A stretch of DNA of 64,000 nucleotides from positions 415,122 through 479,121 of the forward strand of contig NZ_CP065592.1 of NCBI RefSeq assembly GCF_016025255.1, given 5' to 3'. Under the pieces are notes generated by a model, which was given only the letters and a program-made list of their open reading frames with translations, made no database searches and was not told the origin of the DNA. Within the stretch, counting starts at the first letter, position 1; every line of letters begins with the position of its first letter. The DNA is from Sphingosinicella flava. Lineage in GTDB: Bacteria; Pseudomonadota; Alphaproteobacteria; Sphingomonadales; Sphingomonadaceae. A program made the translations under genes and the position numbers. Below are positions 1-9,064 of the stretch, piece by piece.

Positions 1-1396
1 CGGTGATCCATACTTTCATCTGCGCGTCGTCGTTCAGGAAACGGCCAAGGAATCGCAGCACCGTTAGGATGTCGCTATCCTCGCCCGCGACCGTGTTGCC
101 AACGAACACCCACAGGGGCCTTTCGATATTGAAATCGGCGATCGCGTCGCCTTTGGTCTCCCATAGCAGGAGCTGCTGATAGAAACTCAAAAGGCAGGCC
201 GTGAAGTAAAGCGCGCGGACTTGCTCGTCCGCATCGTCGGCAAGGTTCAGGATCAGGGATTCCTTGCCGTAACCATCAGCATAGAAGAACTTGTAGCTGT
301 AATCGAACAGGATCGCCTTGGCGTAGGTTTCTCGGACGGCATCCAGCTTGGCCCGGCGCTGCTCGGCGGTCGTGAGTGCGATCGAATCCCGCTGGGGCTG
401 TGTCAGCGACCTGAGGCTTGTCGTTTCAAACTTCAGCCGGGCTTTGCGCTTAAGGATATCCTCTTCGGCCTTTTCGACGGTAAAGCCCTTGGCCACGGCC
501 TGCGAGAAGGTTGCTGAATATTCGAAGGCAAAGCCCTTGCTCACCAGCGCTTCGCGCCGCGCCATCCATGCGCCGCCCGCGCTGCCGGTGCCGCGATGCC
601 CTTCATCGACGAGCACCAGATTGTCGCCTTCGAACGCATCGACCGCGACGGTTTTGTCCCCCATCTCGTCGCCGAGCTTGTTGATGTCGATCACTTCGAT
701 CGTGCCAGGGAAGTCGGGTGCTCGGTTCTTGTCGAACAGGCGATGGAAGGAAAAGCCCGACAGTGACAACTCGTCGAGATGTTGGCGCGATAGCCCTTCA
801 TTGGGGGTCAGCAGGATGATCTTGTCAGGGAAGGCCTTGCCGCCCTTGGCCCGAAAATAATACAGGTATTGCTTGATGTTGACGTGCAGGAGCAGGGTCT
901 TGCCGCTGCCGGTCGCACTCCAAAATGCGATCTTGGAAAGGTCGGCCTCCACATAGTCACGGAAGGGTTCGGCGCCATTTTCGGCGCGATAGCGCTCCAG
1001 CTCGTCGTTCAGTCCGGTGAGCAGCTCGTCGCGACGGTTGAAATACCAGTCGAGATAGATTTCGCTGAAAAGCAGGCTCAAATATTGGAAATATTTCATC
1101 GTCAGCACGCTGCCCTCGACGGCATTGCGCTTGTGGGTGATAGCCTGCCAGTGGCTGACGATGTTCAGGTCATAGCGGCGTAGCTCGGCCGCATCGATCC
1201 GATCGACATCGAACAAGTTTCGAGTCAGTTCGTGGAAGAAACCCGTCTGGCCGTCATCGTCCACGCCTTCATGGCGCGGGTCAGCCAGCCGGCCCTTGAG
1301 CGCGGCAAGCCCGTCTCCCTTGAAGAAGCCAAGCATCCAGCGATTGAGCACCAGCTCCTGATGAAAGGTGCGGCGAGGACGTGGGGCGCGAGCCAT
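1..1396 (-). CDS. Type III restriction Res-like DEAD/DEAH helicase, 3' end missing
   Basis: This is the N-terminal 465 residues of a superfamily 2 ATPase of the type III restriction (Res) kind; the rest lies beyond the left edge. The visible part has a Walker A ATGSGKT at residues 161-167, a DEGH box at 264-267 in place of the usual DEAD/DEAH, and a motif III-like SAT at about 294-296. The Res subunit would translocate or cleave DNA with the methyltransferase encoded just upstream. The ATG overlaps the methyltransferase stop by one base (TGATG), so the two are translationally coupled. Whether a C-terminal nuclease domain exists cannot be seen. It could also be a helicase without nuclease activity. 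Confidence 0.85.
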   Translation of the reverse strand, partial: MARAPRPRRTFHQELVLNRWMLGFFKGDGLAALKGRLADPRHEGVDDDGQTGFFHELTRNLFDVDRIDAAELRRYDLNIVSHWQAITHKRNAVEGSVLTMKYFQYLSLLFSEIYLDWYFNRRDELLTGLNDELERYRAENGAEPFRDYVEADLSKIAFWSATGSGKTLLLHVNIKQYLYYFRAKGGKAFPDKIILLTPNEGLSRQHLDELSLSGFSFHRLFDKNRAPDFPGTIEVIDINKLGDEMGDKTVAVDAFEGDNLVLVDEGHRGTGSAGGAWMARREALVSKGFAFEYSATFSQAVAKGFTVEKAEEDILKRKARLKFETTSLRSLTQPQRDSIALTTAEQRRAKLDAVRETYAKAILFDYSYKFFYADGYGKESLILNLADDADEQVRALYFTACLLSFYQQLLLWETKGDAIADFNIERPLWVFVGNTVAGEDSDILTVLRFLGRFLNDDAQMKVWIT

Positions 1397-4300
1397 CAGG
1401 CGTCACCCGTCTCAAACATCGCTTCCAAAAATGCCGGTTCGATCTGACGGAGCTTGAGCGTCTTGGTGACCTCACCATCCTCTGCGCTGCTGGTCAGCAC
1501 GGACGGGATGTTATGATCGCCGTTGATGTAGACCACTTCATATTCGCTATCGGCGGGGTTGATCGCCAGCTTGTCGCACAGCTTGGCGAGGCCCTCATAA
1601 TCGAGCGTGTCGCAATCGCGCCAAAGAACGAGCGTGCGTTCGCCGGTCGGCAGCGTGCCCTCTACCGCGACGAAGCCCTGCTTGAGTTGGATATCGATAT
1701 GCCGGACGGTGAGGCCGATCAGATAGTTGAACGTCTCGACAAGATCGATCTTGGTCGGGGCATAGGCACCCGCGCTGTCCACAGCGATATTGAGCGTATA
1801 ATCGAATGGTTTGCGCAAATCCTCGACCGACAGGATAGAACCACGCGCCTCGACATCCAGCATATAGCGAATGAGATAGTCATCGCGGGCACCAGACGTA
1901 ACCGCGTCGAGCAATCCGGTCTGAGCGTCGTCGCGCTTCAGGTTCAGATTGTTGAGCGTGTCCTCATAGCTTTCAATCTTCAGCACCTTGAAGGCGTGGC
2001 TGATACCGGTTTCGGGTGCAGTAGGTCTGCCATCGCTCCAAGTGTCGGAATAAACGATCTTCTGCGCGCGTCGCCGCAACACAGGATCAAAGTAATCCCC
2101 CTGCTCGACCAATATATATCGACGCTCACCTTTATCGTCTCTGTTGAGAGACATCACGGCGTGGGCCGTTGTGCCGCTTCCGCCAAAATAGTCTAAAACT
2201 ATCGCTTCTTTATCTTTTCGCACTACAGCGGAAATCGAGGCTTTTGTTGCGTAGAGCGCCTTGGGATAGCCAAAGGCTTTCCGCCCACCGATTATGTTTT
2301 TTAGTAGGTTGGTTCCATGGCTCGACGCATCCAAACTGGGGTCGATCCATATCGTCTTTGGCTTGCGACCTTCTTTGATCCGGTCCTTGAGCTGGACAGA
2401 ATATTCGCCTTCACCCTGCCGTTTCGCGATAAAATCGCCTATCAGCACATGCTCAAGGATTTTCTGTCGATCTGACCACCGCCAGACTCGACGCTCTCCA
2501 TTCGAGTCTATTGGCATGACGCGAGCAAGCGCGACATCTGATGTAAGGCTTTCGAACGTGACCTCTTTTATTTCGCCATCAATGATACGAAACGCGGAAA
2601 TTGCTTCATATTCAGAAGGGTAATCGGCGGTTCTTTTACCACCGATGCCCACAATCCTATTGGACTCTCGATCAACAAAAAGAGGGTATTCGGAATTTGG
2701 GCGATCGTCAGGTGTTGAAAGGCCGCCGCTGCGCCTAAATGGGAGCAGTCGATACTCCGAAATTTCGTCCTCGTACTTATATCCCTCGCCCTGCTCATCG
2801 CTCAATACTTCATCGCATATTATAGCGACTTCGGGGTTATTGGCATACGCAACCGCATAATCGTGACTCGTCGCGAAGAAGCTATTTATACCTCTACCAC
2901 GAGGGTTGCTCTGAATTGCAATCGTGCCAATATATTTTTCTTCTGAGAAAATCTCGTCAAGAGAAGATTTGAGACGATAAAGCTCCATGTCATCAATGGT
3001 GATTTGAAATATGCAGTCACGGGTCATAAATTTCTTAGAGGCCCCGACGCGACCTTCTATCATCGTAAGCCAAGACGAATGCTTGTATTGGTTTTTGTAG
3101 AAGAATGTAGCTTCTGACGTATTGTAGGGCGGATCGATGTAAACGCACTTCACCTTTTCCCGATACCGCTCGGAGAGCAGCGTCAGCGCCTGGAAATTGT
3201 CCCCATGCACCAACAGCCCGTCCATGCTGCCGTCCAAATCGGGAATAGCCTTGAGCAAGTCCGCCCGAAACGCCGCATCGAACAGCGCGGTATCTACCAT
3301 CAGATAGGGCGATGCCTTCAGGTCATCGACACTGCCGGCATCGGCGCTGTCGCGCATTCCCAGATCGTGCCACTGCGCCCATTGCGCCTGATTGCCGGCG
3401 ATGGCCGGGTAAAGCGTCTCGGGCACACGATCAAGGGTCACGCAGTAATGCGCCGCGACGACGAACTTCTTCTTTAGCCACAGTTTCTTCTGAAAATCCT
3501 CGATACTCGCGAGGAAGGTGATCAGATCCAGCGCGATGGCGCGCAGGCATTGGATCATCCGCAAATTCTTCTCGATCGCGGCGAACGCCTGCGCGTTCTG
3601 CACATCGTCGAGATTCATCACCTCGTTTTTGACGTAGAAATCCAGCTCGCGACGTAGGAACCCGCCCAGATCCTTGTGGATGAAATAGTCGGCGGTGTTC
3701 TTTTGCGTGTAGGTGCTCAGGTGCTTTTCGAGCAGCGTGCGCTGCGGGTTCTTCTCCGTCGGCGCGCGCTCGGTCAGGCCCTGCCAACCGGCTTTGACGG
3801 TCTCATCGCCCAGAACCGCCGCAACCGCCTGATCGACCAAGACATCCTGTTTGCTGCCCTTGGGCATCGCGCGATATTCAAAGCGGATGACCAGATCGCC
3901 GCCTTCCTCGGTGATAGGGACGATCTCGTCCTCGTAAGGCTCGCCGTCCTCGTCGATCAGCTCTACCGTCCGCGCTTCGGCCAGCACGAACCGACGTTCC
4001 TTGTCATTGTCCTTGCGATTGTCCTTGGCGGTATCCGCCGCGACCAGCCGGAAATGCACGGTCCGCCCATCGTCAAGCCTGAAGGCGTAGTTGGAAAAGG
4101 CTTCGCCCGACTTGGTGTAATATTGATCCTTGTTGGCCCAATGGAGCACCACCTCTTCCCCGGCGTAGGGGATGGCGTAGGTGTCGCCCTTGTACCGCCG
4201 CTGACTGATGAAATCGCCCTTGTCGTAATAGCGGCTGAAAAAGGCGAGCAGGTGGGTGAAGACGGCGTTCTCGTGTTCCGATGCGCCGGATGCCGCATCC

Positions 4301-4587
4301 TTCAGCGCGGCGCGCAGGTCCTTCACCTTGACGGTGGTTTCGGGATCGAAGCCAAGCCCCTGCGCTGCCTTGATGGCGTCGTCCAGATCGCGCTGGAGAT
4401 GCTCGCTGCTCGCTTGATTGCCGCTTGCCAGCGCCTCCGCGACGCGCTCTTTCAGCCGAGTCGAGAGATAGGCATTGATCTCGTCGGCGCGGGCATTGAG
4501 GATTCGATAGACACCGAAATCCAGCTCGGGCCGGTCGATCTGGAAAATCTCACGCAGCTTGGTGACGAGCGCGTCGTAGTTACTCAT
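1396..4587 (-). CDS. Type III-like (Mod) adenine-specific DNA methyltransferase
   Basis: This 1063-residue protein is a beta-class DNA N6-adenine/N4-cytosine methyltransferase. Catalytic motif IV (DPPYNT) is at about residues 483-488 and the AdoMet-binding motif I (FGGSGTT) at about 800-806, which is the type III Mod order. A roughly 470-residue N-terminal extension precedes motif IV, so it is longer than classical Mod proteins (about 550-650 residues). The segment between the two motifs, where target recognition domains normally sit, has visibly lower GC than both flanks. It lies 31 bp downstream of the SNF2 gene and overlaps the Res gene, so the three form one operon. The likely role is modification of the host site and specificity of a restriction-like defence complex. 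Confidence 0.88.
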   Translation of the reverse strand: MSNYDALVTKLREIFQIDRPELDFGVYRILNARADEINAYLSTRLKERVAEALASGNQASSEHLQRDLDDAIKAAQGLGFDPETTVKVKDLRAALKDAASGASEHENAVFTHLLAFFSRYYDKGDFISQRRYKGDTYAIPYAGEEVVLHWANKDQYYTKSGEAFSNYAFRLDDGRTVHFRLVAADTAKDNRKDNDKERRFVLAEARTVELIDEDGEPYEDEIVPITEEGGDLVIRFEYRAMPKGSKQDVLVDQAVAAVLGDETVKAGWQGLTERAPTEKNPQRTLLEKHLSTYTQKNTADYFIHKDLGGFLRRELDFYVKNEVMNLDDVQNAQAFAAIEKNLRMIQCLRAIALDLITFLASIEDFQKKLWLKKKFVVAAHYCVTLDRVPETLYPAIAGNQAQWAQWHDLGMRDSADAGSVDDLKASPYLMVDTALFDAAFRADLLKAIPDLDGSMDGLLVHGDNFQALTLLSERYREKVKCVYIDPPYNTSEATFFYKNQYKHSSWLTMIEGRVGASKKFMTRDCIFQITIDDMELYRLKSSLDEIFSEEKYIGTIAIQSNPRGRGINSFFATSHDYAVAYANNPEVAIICDEVLSDEQGEGYKYEDEISEYRLLPFRRSGGLSTPDDRPNSEYPLFVDRESNRIVGIGGKRTADYPSEYEAISAFRIIDGEIKEVTFESLTSDVALARVMPIDSNGERRVWRWSDRQKILEHVLIGDFIAKRQGEGEYSVQLKDRIKEGRKPKTIWIDPSLDASSHGTNLLKNIIGGRKAFGYPKALYATKASISAVVRKDKEAIVLDYFGGSGTTAHAVMSLNRDDKGERRYILVEQGDYFDPVLRRRAQKIVYSDTWSDGRPTAPETGISHAFKVLKIESYEDTLNNLNLKRDDAQTGLLDAVTSGARDDYLIRYMLDVEARGSILSVEDLRKPFDYTLNIAVDSAGAYAPTKIDLVETFNYLIGLTVRHIDIQLKQGFVAVEGTLPTGERTLVLWRDCDTLDYEGLAKLCDKLAINPADSEYEVVYINGDHNIPSVLTSSAEDGEVTKTLKLRQIEPAFLEAMFETGDA

Positions 4588-4618
4588 TGAGAATCAAACT
4601 CCCCCTAGGCGGCCATCC

Positions 4619-7492
4619 CTATACGACCGACCAGCGGATGGTGAACAAGGTTTCGCTGGTTTGCCCGCGCTGCATCCGCTTTTGAAGCGCAGCTATCAGG
4701 GAGTCTCGCCTTTCGGCGATATCATCCTCAACTGCAAAGATTTCTTGCCGCTGTTTGCGCTGCTTGCGCTCCAGTTCAGCGAGGCGGCGTTGGGCTTCGT
4801 GCTCCTCTTCCAACGTGGCCGCGCTCCGCGACTGGCGGCGCATAGCCTTAATCTGCTCCTTGGTGTCCTTGAGCGCCCGCTCGGCGGCGTAAATCTTGTC
4901 CTCGGCCCAATGCTCCAGCTTTTCCCGCGCGGCGGCGAAGTGCTGGCTGTTGGCTTCAAGCGAACGGTTGAGCGCGGCTTTTTCTGCCTGCTGGGCACCC
5001 GCCTCAATCCGGGTCGCGATGATCGACGATGGAGCATCGGCGTGCCGGGTAATCGCGCCGACCGAGAACAGCCGTTCGCATACTTCCTGATCAAGCGACG
5101 CGCCGCGATCGTCGACCCCGGAGAGCAACAGATATTCCTCGGTGTCAAAAGAGGTAACGATCAGGCGGCGCAACGTCAGCCATCCGCTTCGACCCTTCAG
5201 CCCTTCGACGACAGCGTTGCGGACGGGGTGAGTGCCCACATCGAAGACCAGTTCGGCTAGCGGGGTAGGCCGCCCCTTGGCATCATCGAGCACCGTTTCG
5301 CCGAGGGGATGCGACAGGCGGTAAAGGAAATAGCCATGTGGGTTGGGGCTGGCATCATCGCTGCCCGCACGCGAGATCAGATGGTAACGACCTTTCGGGA
5401 TGTGGTCGGCGGGCGGTTCGCTGAGATCGAAGGTTAGCGCGTTTTCATCGAAATCGGCCGCATCGTTCAGTATGAACCGCGTAACATCCCAGAATTTGCG
5501 GCCCACCTGATCAAGCTGCGCCCGGGTGGTCTCAAGTCGCAATTTCAGCCTAGCATGCACGTCCTCGTCGAAGTGCTCCAGCAGGGCGCGGCGGGTATCG
5601 TCCATCCGGGCACGGATTTGCTCGTCCAGCTCGTCCCTCAACGCTTTGAAAGCGGCGTCGATGGCATCAGGCGTGCGGCAATCCTGATAGATGGCAAGAA
5701 TGCGCTTCTCGAAATCGACGCCGGACTCGATCGTGCCGAGCACTTCGTCCGACGCCCCGAAAACACCACTGAACAGGCTGAACTTGTCACGGAGCAGCTC
5801 ATGCACCCGCTGATCGGCCTGATTGCGCTCATTCAGGAAATTGATGACTATAACGTCGTGTGTTTGGCCGTACCGGTGACAGCGGCCTATGCGCTGTTCG
5901 ATGCGCTGCGGATTCCACGGCAGGTCATAGTTGATGACCATCGAGCAGAATTGCAGGTTCACGCCTTCTGACGCCGCTTCGGTCGCAATCATGATCTGGG
6001 CGTGGTCGCGGAAATGGTCGATCAGCGCGCTGCGTATATCGATGGCCTTGGAGCCAGATATGCGGCCAGTCTCCGCGTTCGCCTTTAGCCATCGTTCATA
6101 GATGGCCTGCGTCTGTGCACTGCTGTTAGTGCCGCTAAAAGAAACAACCTGATTGGCGTAGCCGTTGGCTTCCAGATAGGCGCGCAGATAATTCTGCGTG
6201 CGGCGGGACTCGGTGAAGATGAGCGCCTTTTGCAGCGCTCCCATGCGGTCTTGCTCGGCAAAGCCAATGTCGAGCGCTTTCAGGAGTGCATAGGTCTTTG
6301 TATCGGTTCCGATCCCGCGCGCCTGTTCGGCAAGCGCCGTGACCTGCTCGATTTCCGCCCTGAGCTTGGCCGGATTGAATGGCTCAACCGCATCATCGTC
6401 TTCGTCGTCTTCGTCGAGCCACTCATCAAGGAGTTCCTCTTCGATTTCCTCGGCAGTGATGATTTCCTCTGTCCAATCGGTTTCGGGTTCATTGCCATCC
6501 CGAATTGTTCCTAGCCGCGTTCCCAACGTGTCCAACGTTCCAGCAATTGCATGGGACGAAGACGCCAACAGCTTGCGCAGGATCAGGGCCGTGAGGTGCC
6601 GCTGGCGCGAGGGGATTGCGTAGCTGTTTTCGGCTTGCAGGAATTTCGATATACCGTCGTATAGCGCCTGTTCTGGGTCAGTTGGCCGAAACGGCTGCGT
6701 AATCGCTTTTCGCTCCGTGTAGCGGACATATTCCAGCACCTGCTTGCGGAGCGTCCGCTTGCAGAAATCGGCCAACCTGAACCGCAATTCGTCAAGGTTG
6801 CCGCCCGCGTTTACATACTTTGACCGGAACGCATTTGCGTCCCCGAAAAGGTTTTCATCAATGAACGTGGAAAGGCCAAACAGCTCCATAAGGCTGTTTT
6901 GCAGGGGGGTAGCCGTGAGCAGCAGCTTCTTTCTGCCCTCCGTGGCCCACCGTAGGGCCTGCCCGATGCGGTTGCTGGGGCGATAAGCGTTCCGCAGTTT
7001 GTGAGCTTCATCGACGACCACGAGGTCCCATGCGATAGGACGCAATTCGTCCTGAAGGCGTGCCGCATAATGATACGACAGGATCACGATCGCCTTCTGT
7101 TCGAGCGGCCATGCGTGTCCGTCACGTTTAAGGGCGCGATAGGTCTTCGCGTCCAGCACCATCGCGGGCAGATTAAACTTCTCTGTCAGCTCCGCCGCCC
7201 ACTGCTGGCGGATCGAAGCCGGACAGATGATCAAGAGTTTCCGTTTCCGTTCCGCCCATTTTTGGCAAAGAACGATCCCGGCTTCTATGGTCTTGCCCAA
7301 ACCAACCTCGTCCGCGAGGATCACACCTTCCGCCAGCGGCGATTGCAGGGCGAACATGGCCGCCTCAATCTGGTGAGGGTTCAGGTCCACCGACGCGTCG
7401 AACAGCGCCATCGAGAGCTGATCAGCCGCCCCGGGAGGAGCGTGCTTGGTCAGGTCATGGGCGAAGTACTTGGCATGGTATGCAGTTGGCAT
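4619..7492 (-). CDS. SNF2/RapA-family helicase of a defence operon
   Basis: This is a 957-residue SNF2/RapA-like ATPase, taking the start at the conserved block beginning MPTAYHAKYFAHDL. It has Walker A DEVGLGKT at about residues 61-68, DEAH at 161-164, an acidic Glu/Asp insert near 345-370, and a C-terminal helicase lobe with motif VI QRIGRCHRYGQ. The last 120 residues are a charged coiled coil. In-frame ATGs also exist at 7510 and 7540, but none of the three has a good Shine-Dalgarno. It is the first gene of the operon with the methyltransferase and Res-like genes. SNF2-type remodelers accompany methylases in several phage-defence systems, and by inference it moves along or remodels DNA or protein-DNA complexes. 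Confidence 0.85.
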   Translation of the reverse strand: MPTAYHAKYFAHDLTKHAPPGAADQLSMALFDASVDLNPHQIEAAMFALQSPLAEGVILADEVGLGKTIEAGIVLCQKWAERKRKLLIICPASIRQQWAAELTEKFNLPAMVLDAKTYRALKRDGHAWPLEQKAIVILSYHYAARLQDELRPIAWDLVVVDEAHKLRNAYRPSNRIGQALRWATEGRKKLLLTATPLQNSLMELFGLSTFIDENLFGDANAFRSKYVNAGGNLDELRFRLADFCKRTLRKQVLEYVRYTERKAITQPFRPTDPEQALYDGISKFLQAENSYAIPSRQRHLTALILRKLLASSSHAIAGTLDTLGTRLGTIRDGNEPETDWTEEIITAEEIEEELLDEWLDEDDEDDDAVEPFNPAKLRAEIEQVTALAEQARGIGTDTKTYALLKALDIGFAEQDRMGALQKALIFTESRRTQNYLRAYLEANGYANQVVSFSGTNSSAQTQAIYERWLKANAETGRISGSKAIDIRSALIDHFRDHAQIMIATEAASEGVNLQFCSMVINYDLPWNPQRIEQRIGRCHRYGQTHDVIVINFLNERNQADQRVHELLRDKFSLFSGVFGASDEVLGTIESGVDFEKRILAIYQDCRTPDAIDAAFKALRDELDEQIRARMDDTRRALLEHFDEDVHARLKLRLETTRAQLDQVGRKFWDVTRFILNDAADFDENALTFDLSEPPADHIPKGRYHLISRAGSDDASPNPHGYFLYRLSHPLGETVLDDAKGRPTPLAELVFDVGTHPVRNAVVEGLKGRSGWLTLRRLIVTSFDTEEYLLLSGVDDRGASLDQEVCERLFSVGAITRHADAPSSIIATRIEAGAQQAEKAALNRSLEANSQHFAAAREKLEHWAEDKIYAAERALKDTKEQIKAMRRQSRSAATLEEEHEAQRRLAELERKQRKQRQEIFAVEDDIAERRDSLIAALQKRMQRGQTSETLFTIRWSVV

Positions 7493-7494
7493 GC

Positions 7495-7509
7495 TGCACT
7501 TTAAGTGCA
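7495..7509. promoter_or_regulatory. Perfect dyad before the SNF2 gene
   Basis: TGCACTT and AAGTGCA form seven-base arms around a single T. The dyad ends two bases upstream of the preferred SNF2 start at 7492. It could be an operator or an RNA hairpin that limits translation of the defence operon. If translation starts at 7540 it is simply coding sequence. Confidence 0.3.
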
Positions 7510-7584
7510 TAAATCGCTGAATGTCGACGCAGTTGCCCATTCAACCGCCGTTGATACGATTCGCTTGGCGATTGGGGGGAAACT

Positions 7585-8406
7585 TTGCGTCCAACAATAA
7601 TCGATGTGCGAAAAGCGATCGTCGACCGCCTGAGGCGTTCAATGGGCGGCGACTTCGTGGTGGTGGGCGCGCCCGATCATCCGTTGGTCATGCGTTCGGT
7701 TGATATCATTGTGGGCGGTCGGGCTGGGTTAACCGCTATCATGGCGATGACAGCTCAAGAGCTCCGCAGCCAAGAACATTTCACCGCGCGATTAACGTTG
7801 AACAAGATGGCTCTGCCGCCGCATACAAACTTTGTTTTTGTATCAATTGATGGTGAGCGCCCGTACTCGCTTCCAACCAACGCATTTGTAACGGAGATAT
7901 CTATTAAGGATCAGAGGGTCTGGGATGATCTGACGTCAATCTCATCCCGCCCGCAAGGCTTCCCAGATGGTAAGTCTTCCGAAAAAATACATCGGCTTGC
8001 GAGTGCGCGTTTTGGCGACACCTACAAACTCGCGCGCGTGTTGCAACGCGGTCGCTCGAAGGCCACCGCTGCACATGGCAACCGCTCAACGCGGAAGCCG
8101 CGACGCGACCGCCTCTCCCACAACATCGAGGCGGCATTCTTCGCTAATCCACCAACTTTACAAGCCATCGCCAATCTGTCCGTCGAAGGAGCTGATCGGT
8201 GGTACGATATGGATGGGGCAGAACCGTTTCCTACCCAAGCTCCAGCAGGAGCCGCTTTCGCGGAGTTATTCCCATCAAGTCCTGGTGACCCAGATAAAGC
8301 CATCCGTGCGGCTGCGTTTGCCGGTTGGGTTCTAACGCCAGCAGGAACAGGCAAGTCCCCCGACGAAATTTCGGAACTGGTCTCTCGCTATACGAGGGTC
8401 GGATGA
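7585..8406 (+). CDS. Unrecognised 273-aa protein, divergent from the defence operon
   Basis: I do not recognise this family. Translation probably begins at a TTG preceded by a GGGGGGA ribosome binding site. The protein is soluble, with no signal peptide or membrane segment. Its first about 90 residues look alpha/beta, with hydrophobic strands around SVDIIVGG and NFVFVSIDG. The middle (about 150-185) is rich in Arg, Lys and Ser. The C-terminal third has alternating helices. The SVDIIV strand recalls nuclease folds, but no downstream E-x-K is evident, so I do not claim one. It is transcribed away from the SNF2 gene and overlaps the HEPN-like gene by ATGA, so the pair form an operon likely to work with the restriction-like genes. 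Confidence 0.75.
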   Translation: MRPTIIDVRKAIVDRLRRSMGGDFVVVGAPDHPLVMRSVDIIVGGRAGLTAIMAMTAQELRSQEHFTARLTLNKMALPPHTNFVFVSIDGERPYSLPTNAFVTEISIKDQRVWDDLTSISSRPQGFPDGKSSEKIHRLASARFGDTYKLARVLQRGRSKATAAHGNRSTRKPRRDRLSHNIEAAFFANPPTLQAIANLSVEGADRWYDMDGAEPFPTQAPAGAAFAELFPSSPGDPDKAIRAAAFAGWVLTPAGTGKSPDEISELVSRYTRVG

Positions 8407-8843
8407 GCGCTCGAAAATCAAGGCATCTGCTGATGCAAGCGCTAGTGCGAGGGTCGCATCACTATGGTTCGAGCGTAGCGTTTAACTACGTTGATGACGA
8501 ACTTTCCGAACTAGGCCGCTGCCAGAAACTGCAACCGTTGCGCCGTCAGCGGCTTTTACAAATCATCCACTCGACGCGGTCGCTCGACACGTGCCTCGCT
8601 ACTATCCTGAGCAACAATGGCAGAGTTCCAGCGAATGGAATTGGTGGCATGCTTCACCAGCTCAAAGGACTTCCGCCTCATGTCAGAGGCTATCTTGACC
8701 ATGCAGCTGCTACCGCGTTTTCATCAGCAATTGCACCTAGGCGTAATCGATATGCGCATAAGGCCGGAAGCTTTCCGACATCTACTCAGGAAGTAGATCA
8801 GCTTGTCTCCGATGTGCATGCTTGCATGACCATGATCCTGTGA
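8403..8843 (+). CDS. Small HEPN-like protein with R-x4-H motif
   Basis: This 146-residue, apparently all-helical protein carries R114-N115-R-Y-A-H119. That matches the R-x4-6-H signature of HEPN RNases, including the polar residue after the arginine. The motif sits between two predicted helices near the C-terminus, its usual place in HEPN domains. Its ATG overlaps the stop of the 273-residue gene (ATGA), so the two are co-translated. HEPN proteins act as RNases or toxins in toxin-antitoxin, abortive-infection and restriction-linked systems. The assignment rests on the motif and helical character only, so the fold is inferred. The 273-residue partner could be its regulator or antitoxin. Confidence 0.65.
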   Translation: MSARKSRHLLMQALVRGSHHYGSSVAFNYVDDELSELGRCQKLQPLRRQRLLQIIHSTRSLDTCLATILSNNGRVPANGIGGMLHQLKGLPPHVRGYLDHAAATAFSSAIAPRRNRYAHKAGSFPTSTQEVDQLVSDVHACMTMIL

Positions 8844-8902
8844 CCCAAATGGGACCCCGCGAATGGGCGGTTGCTCAATCTCGCCTCTAAGTCATTGGAA
8901 AA

Positions 8903-8978
<76 letters not shown>

Positions 8979-9064
8979 ATGCCTGCAAGGCAAAGCCCGA
9001 AGAAAACGAGGTTCCGTTCCGGCGAGGCGTGCCCGCTAGCATGGGGCGATGCGGGATGCAACGG

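Follow-up and report, generated by a model that had tools for sequence, protein, structure and literature searches.

The left end of the window, by which we mean the 64,000-nt stretch analyzed here (positions 415122–479121 of the single-contig 2.42-Mb Sphingosinicella flava genome, NZ_CP065592.1), carries three minus-strand genes encoding an SNF2-type ATPase, a DNA methyltransferase (Mod) and a Res-like enzyme, together with a divergent pair of small open reading frames, ORF1 and ORF2. The first gene of the three-gene core encodes an SNF2/RapA-type ATPase, recognized from Pfam, Protein Data Bank (PDB) profiles and alignment; its listed ORF extends up to 7540, and alignment with ten relatives placed the likely start at a methionine at window position 7492, 16 codons further in, so that the gene spans 4619..7492. 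It is separated by 31 nt from mod (1396..4587), encoding a 1063-aa type III-like DNA methyltransferase (PADLOC, Pfam, PDB relatives and motifs). Next comes res, whose 5′ part occupies 1..1396 and encodes a Res-like superfamily 2 (SF2) ATPase/nuclease (ORF list, PADLOC and motifs). Extension of the sequence to the left completed res at 1107 aa (L002:13073–16396), with 1,927 nt of the gene lying beyond the window. An earlier reading of the window from its sequence alone, hereafter the original prediction, had proposed that extension as well as a minus-strand SNF2/RapA helicase, a 1063-residue type III-like methylase and a Res-like enzyme, and all three were confirmed by the ORF lists and family scans. 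On the plus strand, ORF1 (7585..8406; ORF list and a relative in genome G629), the first gene of the divergent pair, encodes 273 aa from a TTG start preceded by a GGGGGG stretch, and ORF2 (8403..8843; start, motif and relative) encodes a 146-aa HEPN-like protein with an RNRYAH (Rx4H) motif. The most likely ORF2 start is the ATG at 8403, within a listed ORF of 8325–8843, where it forms an ATGA overlap with the ORF1 stop codon. Because the SNF2 relatives begin near 7492, SNF2 and ORF1, as set by the start positions of both genes, diverge from an intergenic stretch of 92 nt (7493..7584). The pair announced at a distance of 45–90 bp is present and coding, and its distance has been corrected. No convincing promoter was seen in 7300–9000, where one consensus match was obtained against 0.9 expected.

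The SNF2 protein matched the Pfam domains SNF2-rel_dom (1e-33) and Helicase_C (2e-20), and its best PDB profile matches were to RapA, which recycles RNA polymerase and translocates on double-strand DNA. Mod matched the PADLOC model MTase_III (PDLC03646) with 1172 bits over residues 1–1059 and, among the models of that database, only MTase_III and MTase_II. It contains the Pfam domain N6_N4_Mtase (PF01555, 9e-19) and the methylase motifs DPPY (aa 485) and FGGSG (aa 801), and its PDB relatives are Mbo45V, another Mod and the EcoP15I Mod. Full-length Res matched PADLOC REase_III (PDLC03654) with 1554 bits over residues 9–1103 and no other model; a Pfam ResIII domain and the PD-(D/E)XK residues are present. 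Across 69 relatives of Res, GxGKT, PD and D/E were each conserved in 69/69 and the catalytic K in 64/69. The mod and res genes are adjacent and co-directional (window plus L002). Within mod, the GC content dips to 48.8% at window positions 2001–3000, largely between DPPY (3124–3135) and FGGSG (2173–2187), and this low-GC part is probably an exchangeable target-recognition domain.

The helicase–methylase–Res core proposed as a recurrent arrangement proved to be one. A tblastn search of a plasmid set with SNF2 returned 50 plasmid records, ten of which were read with their annotation: SNF2, Mod and Res were together in nine of the ten, and on the remaining one, from Hymenobacter, Res extends past the end of the stretch. 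Genome contigs scanned with an SNF2 alignment yielded at least 559 relatives, of which the best 80 were kept and re-searched with Mod and Res queries; gene calls were made with a simple longest-ORF picker. Among these best 80 of at least 559 loci, all three genes were found in 48, SNF2 and Mod in 12, SNF2 alone in 15 and no labelled SNF2 ORF in 5, and contig edges cut off many of the incomplete loci. Where at least 8 kb was available after SNF2, all three genes were detected by tblastn and the ORF picker in 45 of 53 loci. In the host order, the spread of SNF2 was patchy (17 of 396 genomes at 1e-60, own genome included), and every one of the 15 loci fetched was complete; these came from 14 of the 16 other matching genomes, the fragmentary matches G100 and G130 being left out. 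Besides the window there were thus 72 complete loci (48 from genome contigs, 9 from plasmids and 15 from the order), a selected set found through SNF2. All were co-directional, with the order SNF2–Mod–Res in 69 and Mod–Res–SNF2 in 3.

Judged by record titles, at least 12 phyla are represented among the complete loci. The genome-contig loci include Pseudomonadota, Bacillota, Actinomycetota, Bacteroidota, Planctomycetota, Verrucomicrobiota with Lentisphaeria, Acidobacteriota (Blastocatellia), Nitrospirota, Synergistota, Desulfobulbaceae, Patescibacteria and Omnitrophota, and a Deinococcus plasmid was also among the SNF2 records. No name for SNF2–Mod–Res was found in PADLOC, NCBIfam or the literature searched, and prior naming is possible. 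The cargo of one Cronobacter element includes an SNF2 helicase, a type III restriction endonuclease and a Mod, listed incidentally (PMC12757443). From gene content and conserved motifs, the core is predicted to be a widespread variant of type III restriction-modification that usually has SNF2 as a partner and offers a slot for cargo.

The association was also viewed from the side of Res, in the 27 plasmid records that a Res search returned at 1e-60. SNF2 was present in 17 of the 18 records with Res identity of at least 48%, most of which are near-identical enterobacterial plasmids, so that few independent cases are involved. Pairwise distances across 65 loci (own locus included) were correlated with r = 0.95 for Mod–Res, 0.42 for SNF2–Mod and 0.55 for SNF2–Res, when the largest of 2000 permutations reached 0.16, 0.13 and 0.11, respectively, with shared host ancestry uncorrected. 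These values suggest that Mod and Res behave as a single unit, and that SNF2 is a lasting partner which can be exchanged. Several observations weigh against a firm bond between them. SNF2 distances track those of Mod and Res only loosely; among plasmid Res of at most 39% identity, SNF2 was found in 1/9 and missing in 8/9; 18 of the 50 SNF2 plasmid records pass with the query Res at 1e-60; and of the 53 loci with room, six have neither Mod nor Res and two have Mod without Res. Among the remaining SNF2 plasmid records, the five read with annotation all have Mod and a more distant Res, and in five others, from Providencia, the match covers no more than a third of SNF2. Considering the loose distance tracking and the distant-Res plasmids without SNF2, SNF2 may be a passenger that often travels with Mod–Res, as opposed to a subunit they need. 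By these counts, it is best described as the usual, not the constant, partner of Mod–Res.

The same observations could be taken to mean that the locus is an ordinary type III restriction-modification operon to which the neighboring SNF2 gene adds nothing specific, as would suit the strong PADLOC type III matches of Mod and Res, the SNF2-less plasmids with distant Res and the loosely following SNF2 distances. We consider this unlikely, since a chance neighborhood would hardly produce the same strand and order in 69 of 72 complete loci and complete cores in 45 of 53 loci with room, and since the distance correlations lay above all 2000 permutations.

A further property of the predicted type III variant with its SNF2 partner is that its genes are often spaced apart: a gap of at least 300 nt between core genes was seen in 43 of 69 loci. 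We scanned a hand-picked sample of 65 proteins from such slots, assembled from 66 listed proteins by dropping eight (one IS256 transposase and seven of L081) and adding five of nine genes from loci without detected Mod and two from plasmid annotation. Pfam assigned them to AAA_15 (13), AAA_21 (12), AIPR (7), Schlafen AlbA_2 (7) and Abi_2 (5), and more rarely to RhuM (3), DUF4276 (3), GmrSD (2), Fic (2) and kinase (1), with one gene possibly counted under several names. When ten slot genes were inspected singly, nine matched defence-linked families of this sort and one matched nothing. The PADLOC models HEC-01A, AriA, PtuA and AbiLi each matched 8 to 12 of the 65 slot genes, the ATPases cross-matching. 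Embedded genes of this kind have been described in the Hma operon, which hosts defence genes (PMC12988326, PMC8565338), in a type I restriction-modification system with an embedded DarTG2 (PMC12255303) and in BREX loci with auxiliary effectors (PMC12839542). Going by these family matches, the core operon is a predicted platform, or cargo slot, for other genes, many of them defence-linked.

Beside the core, small DNA-binding proteins (excisionase-like helix-turn-helix, Cro-like or ribbon-helix-helix) were seen by eye to precede SNF2 immediately at about 16 of the 72 loci; none was seen in this window. The gene upstream of SNF2 differs between loci. Ten such genes from nine loci were scanned, and matches were obtained at four loci: a DEAD helicase and a DprA-like protein together in G263, and DUF3859, DUF3703 and a glycosidase at the other three; five genes had no match. 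In G263, which holds the closest SNF2 relative, the adjoining genes (L130:4462–7897) encode a divergent DEAD-helicase/phosphoribosyltransferase protein and the DprA-like protein; either cargo or normal chromosomal genes may be at hand here. Between SNF2 and Mod, the two closest SNF2 relatives carry a protein of roughly 169 aa with no assigned family (L005:12882–13391 and L130:11199–11675); the two proteins match each other with 129 bits and are absent in the window.

The divergent pair has a different distribution. Relatives of both ORF1 and ORF2 were found in G629, which belongs to a different family; gene order is the same there, and the two genes overlap. The ORF1 relative is broken into two pieces at the ends of two contigs, one with 39% identity over 82 aa and the other with 21% over 151 aa. 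The ORF2 relative (L102:582–1025), which overlaps the 3′ piece, shows 30% over 146 aa (E 1e-26, single comparison). Because order and overlap are kept in G629, ORF1 and ORF2 are really coding. The Rx4H motif of ORF2 reads R114-NRYA-H119 and that of its relative RNSIMH, so that R is followed by N in each; the HEPN motif is described as Rx4-6H with a polar residue after R (PMC3710099). ORF2 may thus be a HEPN RNase, as far as motif and predicted helices go. The motif agrees with the original description of the second protein as HEPN-like, and a fold or profile match was not obtained: an AlphaFold2 model of ORF2 made without alignment was all-helical at a predicted local distance difference test score (pLDDT) of 39.6, that of ORF1 reached 34.9, neither protein gave a significant match in Pfam, NCBIfam, PADLOC or PHROGs (best Pfam score 10.5 bits against a cut-off of 26.8), and ORF2 gave none among PDB profiles. 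The idea of ORF1 as an inactivated PD-(D/E)XK fold found no profile or model support and is no more than a guess.

Searches of genome sets that overlap between order, class and phylum indicated that the pair is rare. Neither ORF1 nor ORF2 was found in the 395 other genomes of the order (0/395 each). In the class, ORF1 had one strong match (G629) among 384 other genomes, and six weak matches (E 0.002–0.009, four with internal stop codons) were dismissed as noise. A two-sequence ORF2 profile recovered its own genome only among 398 of the phylum and found nothing in the three congeners of G629. No relatives were detected in plasmids, phages or viral contigs, the G629 relatives used as queries gave no plasmid or viral-contig match, and ORF1 peptide patterns, an approach that finds close relatives only, gave no match in genome contigs. 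The pair was likewise absent from all 105 other SNF2 loci (90 + 15) within the fetched stretches, some of which are short contigs; the best chance match among the 90 had an E value of 0.9. Conversely, G629 has no SNF2 of the core kind, its only helicase matches being at E 2e-6 or worse. The proposal that the pair is an attached component of the core is thus not supported, and in the one clear relative found, the pair occurs without the core. The refuting condition named in the original prediction, that homologues of the pair mostly lack the core, accordingly has 1 of 1 cases behind it.

The surroundings of the pair in G629 were read by comparison with its congener G529. The G629 contig ends are colinear with G529, from which we infer that they adjoin; the G629-specific stretch then amounts to 400 + 1,165 nt plus a gap of unmeasured length between the contigs. 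In G529, dusA-like and ABC-transporter-like genes (these names, like rodA and mrdA below, were read from titles or translations) flank 1,476 nt holding two other small genes (L155:12818–14143), one of which (206 aa) carries RNEFVH, an Rx4H-type motif. This dusA/ABC-transporter site may be a swap point for small cargo. In the S. flava genome, the GC content at third codon positions is 0.55 and 0.50 for the pair, 0.67–0.74 for the core and 0.78–0.80 for mrdA and rodA. Taken from distribution and composition, ORF1–ORF2 is most likely an independent, rare module beside the core. Two points tell against this assignment, in that the separateness of the pair is drawn from one relative, and the HEPN membership of ORF2 from a motif and low-confidence predicted helices.

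If the pair were instead part of a five-gene system, it would back up the core as a suicide effector, with the HEPN RNase released when a phage blocks restriction. HEPN proteins are repeatedly tied to restriction-modification systems (PMC3710099), HEPN backup effectors are found in BREX loci (PMC12839542), and the core on a Blastomonas plasmid (L005) also has a divergent pair near SNF2, one protein of which carries RNNLFH. These points notwithstanding, we regard a five-gene system as improbable: ORF1–ORF2 is missing from the fetched stretches of all 105 other SNF2 loci and occurs in G629 without the core, its base composition differs from that of the core, the SNF2-upstream gene varies by locus, and the Blastomonas pair is dissimilar to ORF1–ORF2 in sequence. 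The latter pair lies 217 nt upstream of SNF2 on plasmid NZ_CP020084.1 (L005:8327–9774), the nearest plasmid relative of the core, and consists of a 326-aa protein with D...QAKK, which by eye could be a nuclease, and the 155-aa protein with the Rx4H-type RNNLFH; it had no PADLOC match. We examined it as a counterpart of ORF1–ORF2 and rejected it for want of any sequence similarity between them.

Core and pair share a chromosomal site. The 3′ part of a tRNA-Lys(CTT) gene (8903..8978, minus strand; tRNA and repeat), located 59 nt past ORF2, forms the right end of an island, and a copy of this 3′ part (46/50 nt) is found 10.5 kb to the left of the window, at L002:4488. The repeat therefore bounds an integrative element of 19,415 nt that holds both core and pair, with the pair at its tRNA end. 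The element has a GC content of 57.6%, against 63.8% for window positions 9001–64000, and left of the core it carries a HipA-like gene, a tyrosine integrase and a primase-polymerase/AAA gene. In the congener G172, an exact 50-nt copy of this tRNA end lies about 21 kb from that genome's own tRNA-Lys (C1 near 1162443 and 1183787), so that the tRNA-Lys site may be a shared hotspot. Taking linkage, distribution and island ends together, we consider it likely, with a probability of roughly 0.7, that two independent defence-type modules stand side by side in one 19.4-kb tRNA-Lys island, an SNF2–Mod–Res restriction platform and the autonomous ORF1–ORF2.

In such a platform, Mod would methylate host sites, and unmodified sites would be recognized by Mod–Res, whereupon Res would spend ATP to communicate along the DNA and then cut. 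SNF2, a putative double-strand DNA translocase, would clear bound proteins or remodel Mod–Res, letting restriction succeed on phage DNA covered by protein, and the core operon would house other genes, many of them defence-linked. Independently, ORF2 would act as a HEPN RNase, and gene order suggests that ORF1 is the partner of ORF2, as an antitoxin or a sensor. In type III restriction, a textbook system, Res already brings a motor for sliding along DNA. That an additional motor of the SNF2/RapA type has been kept beside Mod–Res across at least 12 phyla suggests a lasting requirement, for instance for stripping proteins off phage DNA, for which the two-subunit type III model has no place. A bolder version, in which SNF2–Mod–Res is a distinct "motor-assisted type III" class of at least 12 phyla with an essential SNF2 and a platform for exchangeable effectors, and ORF1–ORF2 the founding pair of an unnamed mobile HEPN module moving between swap sites, is tentative and in our view falls somewhat short of even odds. 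The three-gene unit has probably been overlooked: PADLOC, a search called for in the original prediction, assigns Mod and Res to type III and leaves SNF2 as DrmD-like. New defence genes could be sought in the gaps between core genes, following the example of Hma, and the rare divergent pair is a small candidate HEPN module.

We compared both modules with known systems. ORF1–ORF2 resembles the HEPN RNase modules associated with restriction-modification (PMC3710099) in the Rx4H motif with N after R and in being a two-gene unit beside such a system, and differs from them in that neither protein matches a family in the libraries searched. The core shares an SNF2-type helicase and a DNA methylase with DISARM (parts in PMC9142583), and has Res in place of DrmA–DrmB–DrmC. 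Class 1 DISARM includes DrmD and DrmMI, and SNF2 scored 673 bits against the NCBIfam DrmD model (cut-off 950), 277 against a second one (cut-off 610) and 663 against that of PADLOC. The whole genome gave no match to MZB/DUF1998 (DrmB), for which 8 of 14 control genomes were positive, and no DrmC phospholipase D-type nuclease was seen among the scanned ORFs in or beside the operon, a search that was not made genome-wide. The DrmA profile, an unspecific one matched by 13 of 14 controls, hit the SNF2 gene at 138 bits and, weakly, three further places at 23–31 bits; by this profile and the MZB domain there was no clear DrmA-type helicase besides SNF2, no YprA model having been searched. With the DrmD cut-off missed and MZB/DUF1998 lacking from the genome, we rejected DISARM as far as the tests reach, in line with the original prediction. 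ARMADA, which comprises a RapA/BrxHII-like helicase, a PglX-like methylase and a YprA-like helicase (PMC12458937), likewise combines a methylase with a RapA-like helicase; it differs from the present core, which includes a Res nuclease, and was rejected because Mod matched no PglX-type PADLOC model. A rearranged DISARM/ARMADA relative with Res replacing the YprA-type helicase and nuclease, suggested by DrmD being the best defence model for SNF2, is thus very improbable in view of the DrmD cut-off, the MZB/DUF1998 and DrmA results and the restriction of Mod to MTase_III/MTase_II models.

Hma, made up of a helicase, a 5-methylcytosine (m5C) methylase and an ATPase (PMC8565338), is alike in being a three-gene helicase–methylase–ATPase operon with embedded defence genes, and a HEC-01A model matched 8 of the 65 slot genes here, with cross-matching among ATPase models. 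HmaB, however, is an m5C enzyme, SNF2 scored 181 bits with HmaA, and Hma was rejected since neither Mod nor full-length Res matched the HmaB or HmaC models at 0.001. The nearest known system is type III restriction-modification as represented by EcoP15I, whose Mod2Res1 complex binds its site, starts sliding after using a few ATPs and cuts upon collision with a second complex, cleavage requiring two inverted unmethylated sites and ATP (PMC4490356). The core shares with it the adjacent mod and res genes, a Mod related to that of EcoP15I and a Res with an SF2 ATPase and PD-(D/E)XK residues. It differs in the size of Mod (1063 aa against 644 aa in EcoP15I; relatives of this Mod elsewhere are shorter), in its core genes often being separated by other genes and, above all, in its third recurrent gene, the SNF2 ATPase.

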